A stretch of DNA of 32,514 nucleotides from Candidatus Omnitrophota bacterium (GTDB lineage Bacteria > Omnitrophota > Gorgyraeia > Gygaellales > Profunditerraquicolaceae). Location of the stretch: contig JAPLLS010000113.1 of the NCBI GenBank assembly GCA_026387435.1, forward strand, positions 1 through 32,514. Direction: 5' to 3'. How positions within the stretch are numbered: the first letter of the stretch is position 1; each line of letters opens with the position of its first letter. The notes under the pieces were generated by a model that worked only from the letters and a program-made list of their open reading frames with translations, did not search any database and had not been told where the DNA came from. Both the position numbers and the translations under genes were made by a program. Of this stretch, positions 3-29,124 are shown in pieces.

Positions 3-1673
3 ATTCCGGCTATCGTCAAGGAAAGGAACATTGAGGAGATCATCATCGCCATCCCCTCCGCTACTTCGGACCAGAAGCGCGGGATTGTGGATTACTGCAT
101 AAAAAGCGGAGCCAAATACAGGACAGTCCCCAATATGTCAGATCTGATCGATGGCACGGTTAAGGTAAAGGAGCTGCGTGAGGTAAGGCTGGAGGATTTG
201 ATCAACAGAGATGAGACGCTTGTGGATAGGCAAAAAATAGCGGAGTATATAAAAGGCAAATCCGTGCTGATTACCGGCGCCGGCGGCTCCATCGGCTCTG
301 AGCTATGCCGGCAGGTGGCGAGGCTTAATCCCGGCAAATTGATCCTTTTTGAAAAAGCGGAAAATTCTCTCTTCTATATAGATCTGGAGCTGGGCCGGTC
401 TTTTGAAGGGCTCCGGAAGATTACTCTAGTGGGCGATATTTGCGATAAAAATAGAGTAGAGGATGTCTTCTCCGAGCATAAGCCGCATATTGTTTTTCAT
501 GCCGCGGCCCATAAGCATGTGCCGCTGATGGAGGCGAACGGGATGGAGGCGATAAAAAATAACGTATTCGGCACCAAGATATTGGCGGAAGCGGCGGCTA
601 ATTCAGGTGTAGAAAAATTTATTATGCTCTCGACCGATAAAGCGGTAGCGCCGACGAGCCTGATGGGTGTTTCCAAGAAGGTGGCGGAGCTGTATATAGC
701 CAGCCTAGCGGATAAAAGTGCGACCAAATTTATGGCGGTAAGATTTGGCAATGTTTTAGGCAGTGAGGGTAGCGTTGTGCCAGCGTTCAAAAAAATGATC
801 GAAAAGGGCGGGCCGATCACTGTTACCCATCCTGATATTACCAGGTATTTTATGACTATTCCCGAAGCAACGGGACTGGTGATGGAGGCCGGTTATCTGG
901 GGCAAGGTGGCGAGATATTCATTTTAGAGATGGGCAAACAAATAAAGATACTCGATCTTGCTCACGATATGATAAAACTTTCGGGCCTGGTGTTGGATAA
1001 GGATATAAAAATTGTTTTTACTGGCCTAAAGCCGGGTGAAAAGATGTATGAGGCTTTGGTCGCCGAAGATGAGGAGCTGTTAAAGACGCCCCATGAAAAG
1101 ATAATGGTGCTGAAATCAAATAAAGAGAACGAAATAAATATTTTAAGCTGCCTGGAGGCTTTGGAACAAATCGTTGAGCTTGAAGATATCCGCTCGCTCT
1201 CCGAGCAGCTTAAAAAAATTGTGCCGGGTTACAAACCGGCTTCGCAACTTCCAGATAAGGCAATGCTACCGGAAGAACGTAAAATATCAAATAAAAAAAT
1301 CGGTATCCTTATTGCCGATGATGATAAAATCGTGCAGGAAGTCCTTTGCAAATTTTTGGATGGCCGGGGTTATAACGCGCTTCTGGCGTCAAATGGAAAA
1401 GAGGCCTTGAATATCATTGATACCAATGAAGTGCGGCTGGCGTTTGTCGATGTAAGGATGCCTGGTTTTATAGATGGCCTGGGAACCCTCAAACGCATAA
1501 AGAAGACGAATAAAAATATCGATGTAATAATCATGACCGGCTATGGGACTGAAAATGCGCGCAGGAAAAGCAGGGATTTAGGCGCCTACGCTTACCTTGA
1601 GAAACCTTTTGATCTTTTGGACATTAGGAGTAAAGTAGAGGCAGCTTTAAGTAAAGAGGAGTGCCTGATATGA
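3..1673 (+). CDS. Polysaccharide biosynthesis protein, CapD/FlaA1-type NDP-sugar dehydratase/epimerase, fused to a C-terminal response-regulator receiver (REC) domain; 5' partial
   Basis: The reading frame is open from position 3, upstream of the GTG at 87 given in the ORF track. Rossmann motif ITGAGGSIGSELCRQ, then HAAAHKHVPLME and STDKAV typical of CapD/FlaA1. C-terminal IGILIADDDKIVQEVL...AFVDVRMPG...IIMTGYG...LEKPF is a canonical REC domain. Confidence 0.93.
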   Translation: MPAIVKERNIEEIIIAIPSATSDQKRGIVDYCIKSGAKYRTVPNMSDLIDGTVKVKELREVRLEDLINRDETLVDRQKIAEYIKGKSVLITGAGGSIGSELCRQVARLNPGKLILFEKAENSLFYIDLELGRSFEGLRKITLVGDICDKNRVEDVFSEHKPHIVFHAAAHKHVPLMEANGMEAIKNNVFGTKILAEAAANSGVEKFIMLSTDKAVAPTSLMGVSKKVAELYIASLADKSATKFMAVRFGNVLGSEGSVVPAFKKMIEKGGPITVTHPDITRYFMTIPEATGLVMEAGYLGQGGEIFILEMGKQIKILDLAHDMIKLSGLVLDKDIKIVFTGLKPGEKMYEALVAEDEELLKTPHEKIMVLKSNKENEINILSCLEALEQIVELEDIRSLSEQLKKIVPGYKPASQLPDKAMLPEERKISNKKIGILIADDDKIVQEVLCKFLDGRGYNALLASNGKEALNIIDTNEVRLAFVDVRMPGFIDGLGTLKRIKKTNKNIDVIIMTGYGTENARRKSRDLGAYAYLEKPFDLLDIRSKVEAALSKEECLI

Positions 1674-3064: not shown

Positions 3065-3277
3065 CGGCAGTGCCCACCAAAATAAGGCGGACATTTCATA
3101 TTACCCTTATTAGCAAATAGTTACGTCATTTGCAGCCAAAAATTTCCGGACAAAACGGACATGGTTCGACGCGCTCACTGTGTTCGCTGCTCACCATCGC
3201 GAGGAAAATAACCTTTCTAAACCCCGAATTTCCTCGATAAACAAACCCGGGAACTCGAGGCTGGGATCAAGGACCTA

Positions 3278-3321: not shown

Positions 3322-4575
3322 ATGAGAATGGAGTCTTTCCTTATCCCAATTTTAGCCGGATTGTTCATCTTTATCCTGATAAAACTTATTTCTATCTTCA
3401 GGGGAAGGCGTCAACCTCTGGATATAGTCTCGGATGTCGCAAATGCCGCTCAACGAAGCCTTTTGCCCAAGGAAGTTGCCGGCCTCGAAGAAAAGATGTG
3501 GTATGAGGAAGAGCTGGCTTTTTTGTTCAAGCTTAATGAGAAGATTTCCCTGGCTTTAGGCAAAAGCACGATCGCCGCGCATCTGGTGGAAGAAGTCCAG
3601 CGTTTCATGAACACTACTACCTGCGTGTTGTTCTTGGTGGACGAGAATACCGGTGATTTAAGGGTTGAAGCCGCCTCCGGAGCCAATGCGAAATCTCTTA
3701 AAGATTTTTTCCTGCTTAAAGGAGAAGGCATAACCGGCAAAGTCCTCTCCAGCAAAGAGCCGTTATTGGTCAATGACCTGAAGAAAAATTCTTACTACGA
3801 ATCGATCAACCAGGAGCAGTATTTGGGCAATGTTTTTGTCAGTGTTCCGTTATTGATCAAAGGCCTGCCTATTGGAGCTTTAAACGTCGCCGCTAAAAAA
3901 ACAGCAGCCCTTTTTACCAGCAGGGACGAGGAACTTTTGCTTAACGTTGCCAGGATGGGGGCGGTCGCTTTTCAGAATTCCCGGCTGCAAGAGCAGATCC
4001 AGGCTGATTACCTCAAGACGATGACCACCCTGGCAGTGATCCTGGACGCGCGCGACCCGTACACCAAAAGGCACTCCGAGAATGTCACCCGTTATTCCGT
4101 GGCCATCGCCAAAGAAATGGGTTTTAGTCCGGCTGAGGTGGAAATGATCAGGCGCGCCGGGCTGCTGCATGATATCGGCAAGATCGGGATCAGGGACGAT
4201 GTCCTTTTAAAGCCCGGCAAGCTTACGCCCGAAGAATTCGAACAGATCAAGGTCCATCCGGTAAAGGGCCAGGAAATAGTCAGCTCATTGCCTTTTTTAA
4301 AGGGAGTGGCGGGCCTGGTCCGGCACCATCATGAGCGCTATGACGGCAAGGGGTATCCCGACGGAAAATCCGGCGAGGATATCGAGCTGGGTTCGAGGAT
4401 CATGGCGGTCTCGGACAGTTTTGACGCCATGACTACCGACCGGCCGTATCGTAAAAGATTACTTTTTAAAGAAGCGGTCGCCGAACTTATCCGCTGTAAG
4501 GCAAGCCAATTCGATCCCAAAGTTGTAGATAATTTCATTGCCATCCTGGAAAACAATCCTAAGATCGCGGAATAA
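3322..4575 (+). CDS. GAF domain plus HD-GYP domain protein (putative cyclic-di-GMP phosphodiesterase) with N-terminal TM segment
   Basis: N-terminal hydrophobic helix, central GAF-like region (FMNTTTCVLFLVDENTGDLRVEAASG), HD-GYP motifs LLHDIGKIGI, HHHERYDGKGYPDG and DSFDAMTTDRPYR. Confidence 0.92.
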   Translation: MRMESFLIPILAGLFIFILIKLISIFRGRRQPLDIVSDVANAAQRSLLPKEVAGLEEKMWYEEELAFLFKLNEKISLALGKSTIAAHLVEEVQRFMNTTTCVLFLVDENTGDLRVEAASGANAKSLKDFFLLKGEGITGKVLSSKEPLLVNDLKKNSYYESINQEQYLGNVFVSVPLLIKGLPIGALNVAAKKTAALFTSRDEELLLNVARMGAVAFQNSRLQEQIQADYLKTMTTLAVILDARDPYTKRHSENVTRYSVAIAKEMGFSPAEVEMIRRAGLLHDIGKIGIRDDVLLKPGKLTPEEFEQIKVHPVKGQEIVSSLPFLKGVAGLVRHHHERYDGKGYPDGKSGEDIELGSRIMAVSDSFDAMTTDRPYRKRLLFKEAVAELIRCKASQFDPKVVDNFIAILENNPKIAE

Positions 4576-14911: not shown

Positions 14912-15280
14912 ATGAAACAGTTAACCAGGGTTTTAAAGGTATTGGCGGATAAGAACAGGTTGAGGATATTGAAGCTTCTGGAAAAGAGGAAATTCTGCGT
15001 CTGCGAGCTTGCCGCTGTTTTAGGGATAACTCAGCCCAGCACTTCCCGCCACTTGAAGAAGTTAAAAGCCGCGGGGCTGATCGATGATGAGCAGGAAGGG
15101 TTCTGGACCAACTATTTTATCGGCTCGGCCAAAGATAGCTATAGCAGGTTTATGTTGAAGCATATCCGGGGCTGGCTTAACGCGGATCCGTTAATCAAGA
15201 GCGATCTGGAAAAATCCGGGAAGATCAACCGCAAAAAGTTGTGCTGTAAGGCCGTTCGGCTAATTAAGGAAAGGGATTAA
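14912..15280 (+). CDS. arsR: ArsR/SmtB family HTH transcriptional regulator
   Basis: KVLADKNRLRILKLLEKRKFCVCELAAVLGITQPSTSRHLKKLKAAGLIDDEQEGFWTNYFI, with CVCEL metal-binding-type box in the HTH. Confidence 0.92.
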   Translation: MKQLTRVLKVLADKNRLRILKLLEKRKFCVCELAAVLGITQPSTSRHLKKLKAAGLIDDEQEGFWTNYFIGSAKDSYSRFMLKHIRGWLNADPLIKSDLEKSGKINRKKLCCKAVRLIKERD

Positions 15281-16452
15281 TGAAAGAGTGGAAGAAGTTT
15301 CTTTATATTTTAGCGGCTTTTCTAGCATGTTTTTATCTGCCTGTTGAGAATGCCCGTTTCAGCGGCGCGGTATTCGAGGCGCTGGCTTTAGTGAAATGGT
15401 ATGCCCGGGAGCATGTGCTTTTGTGCTTGGTTCCGGCTTTTTTCATTGCCGGCGCAATTTCTGTATTTGTGAGCCAAGCATCTGTTATGAAGTATTTCGG
15501 GGCAAAGGCGAATAAATTCCTTTCCTACAGTGTGGCTTCGGTTTCCGGGACGATATTAGCGGTTTGTTCCTGCACGGTTTTGCCTTTGTTCTCGGGGATT
15601 TATAAGCGCGGGGCCGGGCTTGGCCCTGCTTGCGCTTTTCTTTATTCCGGGCCGGCGATAAATGTTTTGGCGATCATTCTTACCGCGCGAATCCTGGGTT
15701 GGCAGCTGGGTTTGGCCCGGGCCATTGGCTCAATAGTTTTTAGTGTTGTTATCGGACTCTTGATGCATTTAATTTTTATAAAAGAAGAGTGCAGCCGCCA
15801 GGCAAATGGTAATTTTAATCTGGGAGAAGTTAAAGAAACGCGTTCTTTGAGTCAAACCATTCTTTATTTCGCTGCCATGGTTAGTGTTCTTGTTTTTGCC
15901 AATTGGGCTAAGCCGCTTGAAGGGGATCAGGGGATCTGGTCAATAATTTATCAATATAAGTGGTGGATTACGGGGGTTTCTCTTATCAGCCTAGTGGTCA
16001 TGCTTTTCAAATGGTTCAAAAAGGATGAATTAAAGGAATGGACTGGCTCGACATGGGGTTTCGCGCTGCAAATTTTGCCGCTTCTTTTAGGAGGGGTGCT
16101 GGTTTCGGGTTTCTTATTGGGAAGAGTAGGCCATGAAGGTGTGATCCCGTCGCGTTTTGTCGCGGCCTTGGTCGGGGGGAATTCTTTGTGGGCAAATTTC
16201 TTCTCATCAATTGTTGCGGCATTTATGTATTTTGCCACCCTGACTGAGGTTCCTATCTTGCAGGGGCTGATCGGCTCAGGTATGGGCAAGGGGCCGGCGT
16301 TGGCATTGCTGCTTGCCGGGCCAGCGCTGAGTTTGCCGAGCATGCTGGTCCTTCGCAGTATTATGGGGACTAAAAAGACTGCGGTCTATGTGAGCCTGGT
16401 TGTGGGTATGGCAACCATAAGCGGGATGATTTTTGGGGTGATAGTTAAGTAA
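15280..16452 (+). CDS. Permease of the UPF0718/ArsP-like family
   Basis: Multi-TM; CSCTVLPLFSGIYKRGAGLGPACAFLYSGPAINVLAI repeated-type permease motif. Start overlaps the arsR stop (TAATG); located in the ars operon. Confidence 0.82.
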   Translation: MKEWKKFLYILAAFLACFYLPVENARFSGAVFEALALVKWYAREHVLLCLVPAFFIAGAISVFVSQASVMKYFGAKANKFLSYSVASVSGTILAVCSCTVLPLFSGIYKRGAGLGPACAFLYSGPAINVLAIILTARILGWQLGLARAIGSIVFSVVIGLLMHLIFIKEECSRQANGNFNLGEVKETRSLSQTILYFAAMVSVLVFANWAKPLEGDQGIWSIIYQYKWWITGVSLISLVVMLFKWFKKDELKEWTGSTWGFALQILPLLLGGVLVSGFLLGRVGHEGVIPSRFVAALVGGNSLWANFFSSIVAAFMYFATLTEVPILQGLIGSGMGKGPALALLLAGPALSLPSMLVLRSIMGTKKTAVYVSLVVGMATISGMIFGVIVK

Positions 16453-16462
16453 ACAGGAAAAT

Positions 16463-17353
16463 ATGCATACGCATAAAGAAAATAGTAAAGAAAACCGGCT
16501 GATCATCTCCGCGGGGCTTAATTTTGCCACTACTGCGGCGCAGATCATCGGCGGAATATTCTCGGGCAGCCTATCGCTCATCTCTGACGCGCTGCATAAT
16601 TTAAGCGATACTGTGGCTTTAGTTATTAGTTTCTTTGCGGTGCGGTTGGCTAAGCGTAAAAATACCGAAGCCCAAACCTTCGGCTATAAACGCGCTGAGA
16701 TCCTGGCGGCGCTTTTTAACGCCTGCGCGCTGGTAGTAGTTTCGATATACCTGTTTAAGGAGGCATTTTTCAGATTTACTCATCCGCATCCGGTTAACAG
16801 CTTGCTGATGTTGTCTGTTGCTTCCGTCGGATTGATCGCGAACATTGTTTCTGTAGTTCTTCTTAAGGCGCATGCCCATGAAGATTTAAACGTAAGAGCC
16901 GCGTACGTGCATCTTTTTTCCGATTTTCTTTCTTCGATAGCGGTGATCATCGGAGCCTGCGCGATTTTCGTATCCAAAGCTTATTGGATCGATCCGGCTT
17001 TGACGATTCTTATCGGTATTTATGTAATGAAAGAAGGATATAAAATTATCGAAGAAAGCACCCGTATCTTGATGGAACATGTTCCCAAGGGGATAAGTTT
17101 AAGGGAAATCCAAGCCCAGATCGAAGGTGTTGACAGAGTCAAGGATATTCATCACGCCCATCTCTGGTCGGTCACTGAGCGGGACATCCATTTTGAAGCG
17201 CACATCAATGTGTCGCGCGATATGCAAGTGAGTGAAACATGCCTTTTGGTCAAACAAGTGGAAGATATGCTTAAAGAGCGGTTTGCCATTACTCATGTGA
17301 CATTGCAGGTCGAAATCAACTCGTGCAAAGGCGTGCCTTTGGTTAAGGAGTAG
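16463..17353 (+). CDS. Cation diffusion facilitator (CDF) family transporter
   Basis: SLSLISDALHNLSDTVALVISFFAVRLAKR, HLFSDFLSSIAVIIGA (HxxxD metal sites), C-terminal cytoplasmic domain VKDIHHAHLWSVTERDIHFEAHINV. Confidence 0.92.
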   Translation: MHTHKENSKENRLIISAGLNFATTAAQIIGGIFSGSLSLISDALHNLSDTVALVISFFAVRLAKRKNTEAQTFGYKRAEILAALFNACALVVVSIYLFKEAFFRFTHPHPVNSLLMLSVASVGLIANIVSVVLLKAHAHEDLNVRAAYVHLFSDFLSSIAVIIGACAIFVSKAYWIDPALTILIGIYVMKEGYKIIEESTRILMEHVPKGISLREIQAQIEGVDRVKDIHHAHLWSVTERDIHFEAHINVSRDMQVSETCLLVKQVEDMLKERFAITHVTLQVEINSCKGVPLVKE

Positions 17354-17358
17354 AAAAC

Positions 17359-17926
17359 ATGAAAAGGGAAGCGGAAGAAATTAAAAAGATCGTCCGGGAT
17401 GGTTATGCTAAAGCAATGACACAGAGCGTTTCCTGTTGTTCTAAAAGTTGTTGTTGTGGGAGCACGGACCAGGCTAGAAATATCAGTAAAGCAGTCGGCT
17501 ATAGCGATGCGGAAATGAACGGCGTCCCTGAAGGCGCGAATTTGGGTTTTGGGTGCGGCAATCCGGTTGCGCTGGTTTCGTTAAAAGAGGGCGATGTGGT
17601 TCTTGATCTGGGAAGCGGAGCGGGGTTCGACGCTTTTCTTGCCTCGCCCAGAGTCGGAAAAACCGGCAAGGTCATCGGTGTGGATATGACGCCGGAAATG
17701 CTTGAAAAAGCCCGCGCCAATGCCGCAAAAGGGAACTATACCAATTGTCGGTTGCCTTGCCGGAGCGGTCAGGAAAGGTGATTATCTGAATCTTATATCG
17801 ATGGCCGGATTCCAGGATGTTAAAGTGATGAGTGAAACAAGTTATCCTGTGGATGCTATGTTTGAGAAGCTTAAAGATGCCGAGGGGGCGATAGTCGGGA
17901 TAAAAGTTTCTGCGGTAAAGAAATAA
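17359..17926 (+). pseudogene. arsM: arsM-like arsenite S-adenosylmethyltransferase, internally deleted and frameshifted
   Basis: N-terminal part (17359-17745) EIKKIVRDGYAKAMTQSVSCCSKSCCCG...GVPEGANLGFGCGNPVALVSLKEGDVVLDLGSGAGFDAFLASPRVGKTGKVIGVDMTPEMLEKARANAAKGNYTN is ArsM-like. The C-terminal part VGCLAGAVRKGDYLNLISMAGFQDVKVMSET resumes in another frame at 17747. The intervening core of the methyltransferase domain is missing. Confidence 0.85.
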
Positions 17927-17943
17927 AATAATGGAGCCGGAAA

Positions 17944-18177
17944 ATGAAAATTGAAATTTTAGGCATGGGTTGCCCGAAATGTAAACAGCTTATGGCTAAC
18001 GCTGAAGGGGCAATCAAAGAATTGAACATTCAAGCAGAAGTCGGCAAGGTGACGGATATCGATAAGATCACCGAATACGGCGTGATGATGACTCCTGCTC
18101 TTGCTGTTGACGGCATGGTTGTTTCAGTTGGTAAGGTGTTGAGTAAGGACGAAATTAAGAAGATCATTTCTAAATAA
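17944..18177 (+). CDS. Small thioredoxin-family redox-active disulfide protein
   Basis: MKIEILGMGCPKCKQLMANAEGAIKELN...YGVMMTPALAVDGMVVSVGKVLSKDEIKKII; CPKC motif and cis-Pro loop TPALAV. Confidence 0.88.
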   Translation: MKIEILGMGCPKCKQLMANAEGAIKELNIQAEVGKVTDIDKITEYGVMMTPALAVDGMVVSVGKVLSKDEIKKIISK

Positions 18178-18189
18178 ACGGAGGCAGGT

Positions 18190-18600
18190 ATGGCAGGTAA
18201 TAATTGTATGTGCCAGCAAACAGGGGTGTTGATCTTTTCCTGTTCAGGAAGTTCAGATGTAGGTGAGTTGTCAGACCTCGCAGCCCGTAAGATGGCTAAA
18301 TGCGGACAGGCCAAGATGTTTTGTATTGCCAGTATAGGGGCGAATATTCCAGAGATGATCGAGTCTGCAAAAGCCGCCAGTAAACTTATTGCCATTGACG
18401 GCTGCCCGGTCGCTTGCTCAAAGAAAATCCTTGAGCAGGCCGGGTTTACGCCGGTCGCGTTTAATCTTAAAGATATGGGATTTATTAAAGGAAAAACCAA
18501 GGCGGATGATGAGTCTATTGAACAGGTTTTTTCGAAAATCACTGGAGGAAAAGTTGAAGAAGCTGATCGTAATACTTCTGGCGGCTGTTGCGGTAGTTAG
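18190..18600 (+). CDS. Putative zinc-binding protein (DGC domain)
   Basis: GVLIFSCSGSSDVGELSDLAARKMAK...IAIDGCPVACSKKILEQAGF (DGCPVAC), terminal GGCCGS metal-binding-like tail. Confidence 0.85.
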   Translation: MAGNNCMCQQTGVLIFSCSGSSDVGELSDLAARKMAKCGQAKMFCIASIGANIPEMIESAKAASKLIAIDGCPVACSKKILEQAGFTPVAFNLKDMGFIKGKTKADDESIEQVFSKITGGKVEEADRNTSGGCCGS

Positions 18601-18970
18601 TCCGGGTTTTTCAGCGTTTGCCGCGGAGGGTAAGCCTGATGGTAAGGTTATTGCTTATTATTTTCACGGAACAATGCGTTGCCCTACCTGCTATAAACTG
18701 GAGCAGTATTCAAAGGAAGCCATAGAAACTAATTTTAAAGATGCTCTCGCGTCCGGAAAGTTGGAGTTTAAAGTTGTAAACGTAGAAGACAGAGGCAACG
18801 AACACTATGGCGATGAGTACCAGCTTTATACCAAATCGCTTATTTTGTCTTTAGTCAGAGATGGCAAGCAAATTAAATGGAAAAATTTTGATAAGATCTG
18901 GGAGTATGTCGGCGATAAGCAGATATTTCTTGATTACGTGAAGAGCGGGGTCGTTGATTTTCTAAAGTAA
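18554..18970 (+). CDS. ArsF-like secreted thiol protein (nitrophenyl-compound reductase subunit ArsF family)
   Basis: TTG start at 18554 with GGAGGAA RBS at 18544-18550. Signal peptide KKLIVILLAAVAVVSPGFSAFA, YYFHGTMRCPTCYKLEQYSKEAI. Family assignment is from memory of ArsEFG-type loci. Confidence 0.72.
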   Translation: MKKLIVILLAAVAVVSPGFSAFAAEGKPDGKVIAYYFHGTMRCPTCYKLEQYSKEAIETNFKDALASGKLEFKVVNVEDRGNEHYGDEYQLYTKSLILSLVRDGKQIKWKNFDKIWEYVGDKQIFLDYVKSGVVDFLK

Positions 18971-18975
18971 GCTAA

Positions 18976-19665
18976 ATGACAGAGATTTTCATAGGCTTTG
19001 CGTCAGCGTTGTGGCTGGGGATTTTGACATCGATTAGCCCGTGCCCTTTGGCCAGTAACGTGGCTGCCATTTCTTTTTTGTCTAAGAAGATAGCCCATCC
19101 GGCGCTGGTGTTTATTTCAGGATTGGCGTATACGATAGGGCGGATGGTTTCGTATGCTCTTCTGGGTTGGATTGTTATCAATTCCCTGTTAAGTATTCCT
19201 CAAGTTGCCCAGTTCTTACAGAAATACATGGGCAGAGCTCTGGGCCCGCCATTAATCCTTACCGGGCTCATTCTACTTGAGGTAATTACTATTCGTCTGC
19301 CGGGAGTGTCGCTTTCACAAAAGCATCATAATAAGCTTGCGGAGTCCGGAGCTGGGGGTGCTTTTTTGCTTGGTTTTATTTTTGCTCTGGCGTTTTGCCC
19401 GATCTCGGCGGCGTTATTCTTTGGGAGCCTTATTCCTTTGGCGATCAATAGTAAAAGCGGAATTGTTCTGCCGTTTATTTACGGAATAGGAACGGGGTTG
19501 CCGGTTCTGGTATTTGCTGTGGCTATTGCTTTGGGAGTAACATCTTTGAGCCATTGGTTTCACAGGATCACCCGGCTTGAATACTACACTCGTAAAATTA
19601 CCGGAGCCGTATTTATCATTGTGGGGTTATATTACACCGGCATATATATTTTAAAGCTATTTTAA
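18976..19665 (+). CDS. CcdA/DsbD-like membrane protein, ArsG-like (putative arsenical efflux permease)
   Basis: SALWLGILTSISPCPLASNVAAISFLSKK and ALAFCPISAALFFGSLIPLAI repeats typical of the CcdA/LysE-like fold; follows the ArsF-like gene. Confidence 0.75.
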   Translation: MTEIFIGFASALWLGILTSISPCPLASNVAAISFLSKKIAHPALVFISGLAYTIGRMVSYALLGWIVINSLLSIPQVAQFLQKYMGRALGPPLILTGLILLEVITIRLPGVSLSQKHHNKLAESGAGGAFLLGFIFALAFCPISAALFFGSLIPLAINSKSGIVLPFIYGIGTGLPVLVFAVAIALGVTSLSHWFHRITRLEYYTRKITGAVFIIVGLYYTGIYILKLF

Positions 19666-19703
19666 GGTGCGTCATATCAATTCTAAGAAGGTGAGGTATA
19701 TAT

Positions 19704-20762
19704 ATGTCTGAAACGAAAAGCAGCGTAAAACTTCCGTTTTTCGAGAGATATCTTTCGTTTTGGGTTATTCTTTGTATCATTGCTGGCGTGATCATCGGGA
19801 AAATACTTCCCGGTGTAGTAAATTTCTTAAGTAGATTGGAAGTGTCGCAGGTAAATATTCCGGTTGCGGTCCTTATCTGGCTGATGATCTATCCGATGAT
19901 GGTGCAAATTGATTTCTCAAGTATAGTAAGGGCAGGGAAGAAACCCAAGGGATTAATAGTAACATTGGTTGTAAATTGGTTGATCAAACCGTTTACTATG
20001 GCAATATTTGCCGCGATATTTTTTAAATACATATTCTCCGCTTTTATTAATCCGGCTTTAGCCAAAGAGTATATCGCCGGCGCCATACTGTTAGGGGCCG
20101 CGCCTTGTACGGCCATGGTCTTTGTCTGGAGTTATTTAACTAAAGGTGATCCAGCCTATACCTTGGTCCAGGTAGCGGTGAATGACCTGGTTATATTAGT
20201 TGCCTTTGTCCCTATTGTTAAATTCCTGCTGGGTGTAAATCAAATCACTGTGCCTTATGATACTTTGATCTATTCTACTATTTTCTTTGTTGTTATCCCG
20301 CTTGTAGGCGGGTATATTTCCAGGGTGTATCTATTGAAGATGAAAGGGATAAATTGGTTTGAAAACGTATTTTTAAAAGTGCTTAAACCGATAACAATTT
20401 TAGGGTTACTGTTGACTTTGATTATTCTTTTTGCTTTTCAGGGGAATATAATACTCGGGAATCCTCTGCATATATTGTTAATAGCTGTTCCTTTGACAAT
20501 TCAGACTTATTTTATTTTTTTTATCGGTTATTTATGGTCTCGGAAATGGCGTTTAGCTCACGGAATTGCTTCTCCGGCGGGAATGATTGGCGCGAGTAAC
20601 TTTTTCGAGCTATCCGTAGCTGTGGCAATTTCTTTATTTGGATTAAGGAGTGGAGCAGCGCTTGTCACTGTAGTAGGCGTGCTTACCGAAGTGCCGATAA
20701 TGCTGAGTCTGGTTAATTTTTCCAACAAGACCCGGCATTGGTTTGAACCGAAGAAGATATGA
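19704..20762 (+). CDS. ACR3 family arsenite efflux transporter
   Basis: FWVILCIIAGVIIGKILPG, PVAVLIWLMIYPMMVQIDFSSI, GAILLGAAPCTAMVFVWSYLTKGDPAYTLVQVAVNDLVIL, SPAGMIGASNFFELSVAVAISLFGLRSGAALVTVVGVLTEVPIMLSLV: diagnostic ACR3 motifs. Confidence 0.96.
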   Translation: MSETKSSVKLPFFERYLSFWVILCIIAGVIIGKILPGVVNFLSRLEVSQVNIPVAVLIWLMIYPMMVQIDFSSIVRAGKKPKGLIVTLVVNWLIKPFTMAIFAAIFFKYIFSAFINPALAKEYIAGAILLGAAPCTAMVFVWSYLTKGDPAYTLVQVAVNDLVILVAFVPIVKFLLGVNQITVPYDTLIYSTIFFVVIPLVGGYISRVYLLKMKGINWFENVFLKVLKPITILGLLLTLIILFAFQGNIILGNPLHILLIAVPLTIQTYFIFFIGYLWSRKWRLAHGIASPAGMIGASNFFELSVAVAISLFGLRSGAALVTVVGVLTEVPIMLSLVNFSNKTRHWFEPKKI

Positions 20763-28778: not shown

Positions 28779-28806
28779 TTGACTTGAAAGTCATTTATTG
28801 TAAAAT
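28779..28806 (+). promoter_or_regulatory. Predicted sigma-70-type promoter for the split tRNA-Asn
   Basis: TTGACT (28779-28784), 16-nt spacer, TAAAAT (28801-28806), about 10 nt upstream of the tRNA 5' end. Confidence 0.65.
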
Positions 28807-28816
28807 AATACCCTAT

Positions 28817-29081
28817 TCCCCCTTAGCTCAGCTGGTAGAGCGAGTGGCTGTCAAAGGCAGCTCCCGCGGGAAACCGCGGCTGGAACTGCGGGCTAATTCA
28901 GGGAAGTCCCATTGGGATAATCCTGAGCTAAATTCACGATACTTTCGTGATAAATGTGCAGAGACTATATACCCGCCTCCTACAGCGAAAGCTACGGAGA
29001 AGAGATAGTCCGAACCCGGAAGCAATTTCGGGAAAATTCGTAACCACCAGGTCCTAGGTTCGAGTCCTAGAGGGGGAGCCA
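28817..29081 (+). tRNA. tRNA-Asn(GUU), interrupted by a group I intron in the anticodon; exons 28817-28851 and 29041-29081
   Basis: Joined exons: TCCCCCTTAGCTCAGCTGGTAGAGCGAGTGGCTGT + TAACCACCAGGTCCTAGGTTCGAGTCCTAGAGGGGGAGCCA = 76 nt. Perfect 7-bp acceptor, 4-bp D stem, T arm CTAGG-TTCGAGT-CCTAG, discriminator G and encoded CCA. Anticodon loop CTGTTAA; one A27-C43 mismatch at the base of the anticodon stem. Confidence 0.93.
28852..29040 (+). ncRNA. Group I self-splicing intron (189 nt, no ORF) within tRNA-Asn
   Basis: P1: exon GCTGU (28847-28851) pairs with IGS GCAGC (28857-28861), with a U.G pair at the 5' splice site. P2 CCGCGG/CCGCGG. P3 GCGGG (28888-28892)/CCCGC (28972-28976). P4 TCAGG (28898-28902)/CCTGA (28922-28926). 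P5 CCC/GGG. P6 CACGA/TCGTG. R element GTGCAGAGACTATA and S element AAGAGATAGTCC form P7 (GACTA/TAGTC). P8 CTCC..GGAG. P9 CCCG/CGGG. Terminal omega-G at 29040. Confidence 0.93.
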
Positions 29082-29089
29082 TATTTTTA

Positions 29090-29124
29090 ATAGCCTTACT
29101 CATATGAGTAAGGCTATTTTTTTT
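29090..29124 (+). terminator. Rho-independent terminator of the split tRNA
   Basis: Perfect palindrome ATAGCCTTACTCAT/ATGAGTAAGGCTAT (29090-29117) followed by a T run (to 29124). Confidence 0.88.

Follow-up and report, generated by a model that had tools for sequence, protein, structure and literature searches.

Bacterial tRNA group I introns have been described in cyanobacterial tRNA-Leu(UAA), tRNA-Ile(CAU), tRNA-Arg and tRNA-fMet (PMC4033280, PMC8450103, PMC4853749). In Patescibacteria, one paper notes group I introns in unspecified tRNAs, and a 2025 preprint by Nakagawa et al. announces in its title a novel tRNA insertion site of group I introns. The 22-49-nt "group I introns" listed for cyanobacterial tRNAs (PMC5733544) were set aside and are not counted here as precedent because a group I core would not fit into their length. 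A literature search, in which the Nakagawa preprint was compared by its title, found no tRNA-Asn among the bacterial hosts of group I introns.

Here, we describe a split tRNA-Asn gene in a stretch of 32,514 nucleotides from a Candidatus Omnitrophota bacterium (contig JAPLLS010000113.1), hereafter the window. We consider it very probable that a compact, ORF-less group I ribozyme occupies the anticodon of the only tRNA-Asn gene detected in this genome, that it splices itself out to yield tRNA-Asn(GUU), and that its lineage has spread by homing.

Host gene and intron anatomy

When the two exons are joined (Table 1), they give a 76-nt tRNA that ARAGORN identifies as tRNA-Asn(gtt), with a complete cloverleaf, a GUU anticodon, U1-A72, G73 and an encoded CCA. 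The insert separates anticodon positions 35 and 36 (GU/U), and the splice junction in the window gene is unambiguous, since any shift of the boundary leads to a different product. Used as a 76-nt query in an empty-site test, the joined exons directly matched intact, uninterrupted tRNA-Asn genes in relatives (L104-L113), with 93-96% identity. The original prediction of a 189-nt insert at 35/36 of a tRNA-Asn(GUU) gene, spanning 28817-29081 and leaving a complete 76-nt tRNA with CCA once the exons are joined, is borne out in each of these respects, with the same coordinates. The split gene probably forms a transcription unit of its own. Elsewhere in the window, a gene run at 14912-20762 resembles arsenic/metal resistance genes (ArsR-like regulator, permeases, and ACR3-like pump), in which a methyltransferase-like ORF (17359-17781) appears shortened.

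Table 1. Features of the split tRNA-Asn locus, in window positions
Feature	Position	Strand	Basis
Sigma-70-like promoter TTGACT-16-TAAAAT, just 5' of the tRNA	28779..28806	+	Consensus match only; 1 found vs 0.8 expected by chance
tRNA-Asn(GUU) 5' exon, positions 1-35	28817..28851	+	Joined-exon reading, comparison with relatives
P1, GGCUGU^C (GGCUGU is the 5' anticodon arm) paired to GGCAGCU; 5' splice site marked by the wobble pair U28851.G28857	28846..28862	+	Read from sequence
Group I intron, 189 nt	28852..29040	+	RF00028 66.4 bits; model R1 163.3 bits (window intron is one R1 training row)
P2 hairpin, GAAA tetraloop	28864..28879	+	Folding, alignment of introns
P3, 28888-28892 with 28972-28976	28888..28976	+	Alignment of introns
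P4-P5 with P and Q elements	28895..28932	+	RF00028, alignment of introns
P7 from R (28956-28967) and S (29000-29011); bulge A28962	28956..29011	+	Alignment of introns
P8	28977..28999	+	Alignment of introns
P9, GCAA tetraloop	29015..29032	+	Alignment of introns
Terminal G (omega G)	29040	+	Read from sequence; G-ending in all aligned members
tRNA-Asn 3' exon, positions 36-76, CCA encoded	29041..29081	+	Joined-exon reading, comparison with relatives
Intrinsic terminator 3' of the tRNA	29089..29118	+	13-bp stem, then T-run

The insert is, as judged from its sequence, a group I catalytic intron. The RF00028 search that had been suggested as a check matched 28840-29032 with 66.4 bits (gathering score 50; E 6e-15) over the complete model (1-253), and none of 200 dinucleotide-preserving shuffles of 28840-29040 folds as well as the stretch itself (z -4.4). 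The conserved core from P3 to P9 with its P/Q/R/S elements is present, as assessed by RF00028 and covariation, so the claim of a full group I core stands; the U.G pair at the 5' splice site, the terminal G and the R and S elements were likewise found where they had been read. Small size, a tRNA host and GNRA loops in L2 and L9 suggest a candidate member of subgroup IC3.

For covariation, 19 introns were aligned, all at tRNA-Asn 35/36 and including the window intron. RNAalifold yielded P2, P3, P4, P5, P6, P8, and P9, and P7 was added by hand. Across these introns, covariation or conservation was seen for nine helices, among them those of the P3/P7 pseudoknot: 96.4% of the paired cells can pair, compared with 75.5% in shuffled alignments and at most 48.4% when the structure is slid, a percentage that is favoured because the structure came from the same alignment. 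Thirty-three pairs change on both sides, and these two-sided changes are far above both the shuffled and the slid controls despite the alignment-derived structure. In P7 (GAGACUA/UAGUCC), five of six pairs are invariant and one covaries, the helix being kept save for one cell. We take G28963-C29010 in P7 to be the guanosine-binding pair expected of a group I intron; it is kept in 19 of 19. The guide GCAGC is invariant in this alignment, and the full-length introns at tRNA-Asn 35/36 end in G and contain a GCAG guide. Model R1, built from the alignment, scores the window intron, which was in its training set, at 163 bits. As read from the sequences, P10 (guide with 3' exon) is weak in the window copy, in which only a U.G is possible, and consists of four pairs (GUUA/UAAC) in some relatives (L149, L212, and L213).

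Close relatives, splicing and competing readings

A search of related genomes for tRNA-Asn genes with inserts at 35/36, proposed together with the original prediction, was productive: the gene is split at exactly this position in 20 of 58 (loci checked by exon fit; one, in G050, ends at a contig end). In the split relatives, the joined query returned the gene as two pieces, 1-35 and 36-76, and the same search found no full-length intact tRNA-Asn in any of the 20. The flanks of the tRNA locus, compared over up to 1.5 kb, share no common neighbours with those of relatives. In G019, a lone match to the tRNA-Asn 5' exon was seen (contig 19:3167-3205), in addition to an intact tRNA-Asn at another place.

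The window genome is a draft of 1.78 Mb in 136 contigs, 94.6% complete. Its 41 intact tRNAs include those for Asp, Thr, Tyr, and Lys and none for Asn; the split copy is therefore probably its only tRNA-Asn, as far as can be inferred from a draft. Since no intact tRNA-Asn was found in a genome of this completeness, translation of Asn codons (218 AAY codons in ten ORFs of the window) probably depends on splicing.

The window intron probably splices itself out. The internal guide sequence would pair with the 5' anticodon arm (P1, U35.G), a guanosine bound in P7 would attack after U35, and the freed U35 would in turn attack after the terminal G to give ligated tRNA-Asn(GUU); the reaction may require a protein cofactor.

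The alternative that survives best, if at a very low probability, is that the locus is a dead pseudogene, with a decayed intron and the real tRNA-Asn missed in the draft. The fragmented, incomplete assembly and the weak P10 would speak for it, but the exons retain a full tRNA structure and are 93-96% identical to intact genes, conservation of the catalytic core is complete, and the search with the joined exons gave no full-length intact copy in any of the 20 split relatives.

It is hardly conceivable that the host is tRNA-Asp(GUC) or tRNA-Thr, with a junction at some other point of the loop. As had been foreseen, a tRNA finder misses or mis-calls the gene: ARAGORN returned no tRNA in the window in default mode and, with introns allowed, tRNA-Asp(gtc) with a 168-nt intron. 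This call requires a tRNA of 97 nt. In several relatives, a two-base shift produces a Thr anticodon, and ARAGORN with introns allowed reads them as tRNA-Thr introns, a reading we rejected because their exons match intact tRNA-Asn genes. Applied to the window, the Thr shift would leave an intron that does not end in G and would abolish the U.G pair at the splice site. Moreover, the tRNA agrees in its body with intact tRNA-Asn, and the genome encodes its tRNA-Asp and tRNA-Thr in other genes.

In archaea, tRNA introns are found in the anticodon loop. This location, together with two archaeal records in our pattern scan that have tRNA matches and short inserts, would be the case for a protein-spliced (bulge-helix-bulge) or other non-ribozyme intron, to which we assign almost no probability in view of the full group I core with covariation. 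In addition, 35/36 differs from the canonical 37/38 site (PMC4033280). An assembly or binning artefact, to which a fragmented draft might be prone, is just as implausible given that 20 of the 58 relatives, and named genomes too, have the same split.

With a probable self-splicing group I intron in its tRNA-Asn(GUU) gene, the genome would rely on a ribozyme for an essential tRNA of which no second copy was detected. Because a tRNA finder misses or mis-calls the gene, Omnitrophota genomes may seem to lack tRNA-Asn.

Occurrence across Omnitrophota, other phyla and virus contigs

In a sample of 386 genomes of the phylum, 206 match group I introns of one kind or another, and 37 match a strict pattern of tRNA-Asn 5' exon plus guide; a reversed-pattern control gave no match among the matches listed. 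Within the same family and order, joined exons reveal introns in tRNA-Tyr(GUA) at 35/36, tRNA-fMet at 33/34, tRNA-Lys(UUU), and tRNA-Arg(UCU), the exact position in tRNA-Lys being ambiguous because of a run of U. A tRNA-fMet gene of the window genome is likewise interrupted by a group I intron, 626 nt long (L002; contig 63, region 1065-1768), with an ORF of the PD-(D/E)XK type (PDDEXK_5, E 9e-35). On contig 76 of this genome (L003), RF00028 also matches weakly (37 bits), with a large insertion, in what appears by eye to be a 23S rRNA gene.

A pattern scan of species genomes returned many intact tRNA-Asn genes as noise. We retained a record only if it showed a tRNA-Asn 3' exon as well as an intron match, so that counts are lower bounds. 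The tRNA-Asn 35/36 split was found in records labelled as at least about seven further phyla, mostly metagenome bins, because of which the labels may err in single cases. Among the matches listed, split records (RF00028 and joined exons) are labelled Omnitrophota, Patescibacteria groups (Saccharibacteria, Kaiserbacteria, Parcubacteria, Berkelbacteria, Magasanikbacteria, and Woesebacteria), Bacteroidetes, Melainabacteria, Gemmatales, Nitrospirae, and Deltaproteobacteria. The original guess that this host and site may be rare must be abandoned, the same site being occupied in about a third of the relatives and in several other phyla. For four cross-phylum records, the top scripted join was another isotype; there too, a G-ending intron lies directly before UAACC, as read from the sequence. 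At one further locus (L207), the exons could not be joined. Two Burkholderiaceae records fall below the Rfam cut-off, yet score 97-101 bits with R1. Two records labelled thaumarchaeote (L208) and Aenigmatarchaeota (L218) gave tRNA matches of 121 and 134 nt, which are probably ordinary archaeal introns.

At least two IMG/VR contigs, L258 (69.6 kb) and L259 (256.5 kb), have a tRNA-Asn 35/36 intron. L258 also has a 224-nt group I intron at 34/35 of a tRNA-Ser(UGA) gene (3508-3680, minus strand) and ten other tRNAs. A 5.6-kb IMG/VR contig (L257; coordinates 3069-3239 and 416-591, minus strand) has a tRNA-Tyr(GUA) 35/36 intron as well as a tRNA-Asn-like 5' exon and intron followed by a 3' exon that does not fit. 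In a 735-kb uncultured phage (L437, LR756501.1), an intron of this type interrupts a tRNA-Leu(UAA) gene (81 bits with R1).

Mobility and comparison with described introns

The only open stretch in the window intron is one of 63 codons on the opposite strand, and no endonuclease is encoded. Seven longer introns at tRNA-Asn 35/36 (528-619 nt) have ORFs of 112-162 aa that, by position, sit in the P1 loop. Of two tested, one gave an HNH match below the Pfam cut-off (E 0.0037) and the other no match. The weak match, a visible Cys/His pattern and phage relatives annotated as HNH endonucleases together suggest that these ORFs are putative HNH-type endonucleases. Beside the tRNA-Asn 35/36 intron of L258 lies an ORF that shares 54% identity with one of them over 89 aa. 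In annotated phages, the sequences closest to the L258 intron at the DNA level are mostly found beside protein genes, e.g. capsid and helicase.

In a quick tree of 71 introns, sequences cluster by host tRNA, with four changes in all versus a shuffled mean of 27.8; the Asn introns need two changes, and deep branches are weak. This pattern fits homing spread at a fixed site, in either direction, plus descent. The lineage would have spread by homing at the conserved anticodon site through HNH-type endonucleases, apparently still encoded by the longer sister introns, and the window copy would have lost its endonuclease ORF or never had one. Tentatively, and with less than even confidence, we propose further that one or two group I lineages, also carried by viruses with large tRNA sets, use tRNA-Asn 35/36 across phyla as a homing site so far undescribed, and that Omnitrophota are a hot spot in which sole essential tRNAs of at least five isotypes are ribozyme-dependent. 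One anticodon site with wide, patchy occupation across phyla and virus-like contigs offers a testable case for tRNA intron movement.

Several described systems can be set beside these introns. As of Hausner 2014 (PMC3984707), phage group I introns were known in protein genes only, whereas the tRNA-Ser(UGA) intron of L258 lies in a tRNA gene. Cyanobacterial-type tRNA-fMet introns with a PD-(D/E)XK homing endonuclease (I-SspI type) resemble the fMet intron of the window genome, which in the tree forms a branch separate from the Asn introns. The new tRNA site of Nakagawa et al. (2025), going by the title, is in Patescibacteria, where we also find tRNA-Asn 35/36 introns, and its site or host may overlap with ours. 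With the classical bacterial tRNA introns, the window intron shares a small group I ribozyme in the anticodon loop, a guide that pairs with the anticodon arm and a host gene missed by tRNA finders. It is thus an addition to this known class, extending its hosts beyond those in the literature found, and it differs from the classical members in its host, tRNA-Asn(GUU), in its position at 35/36 and in its broad occurrence in Omnitrophota.
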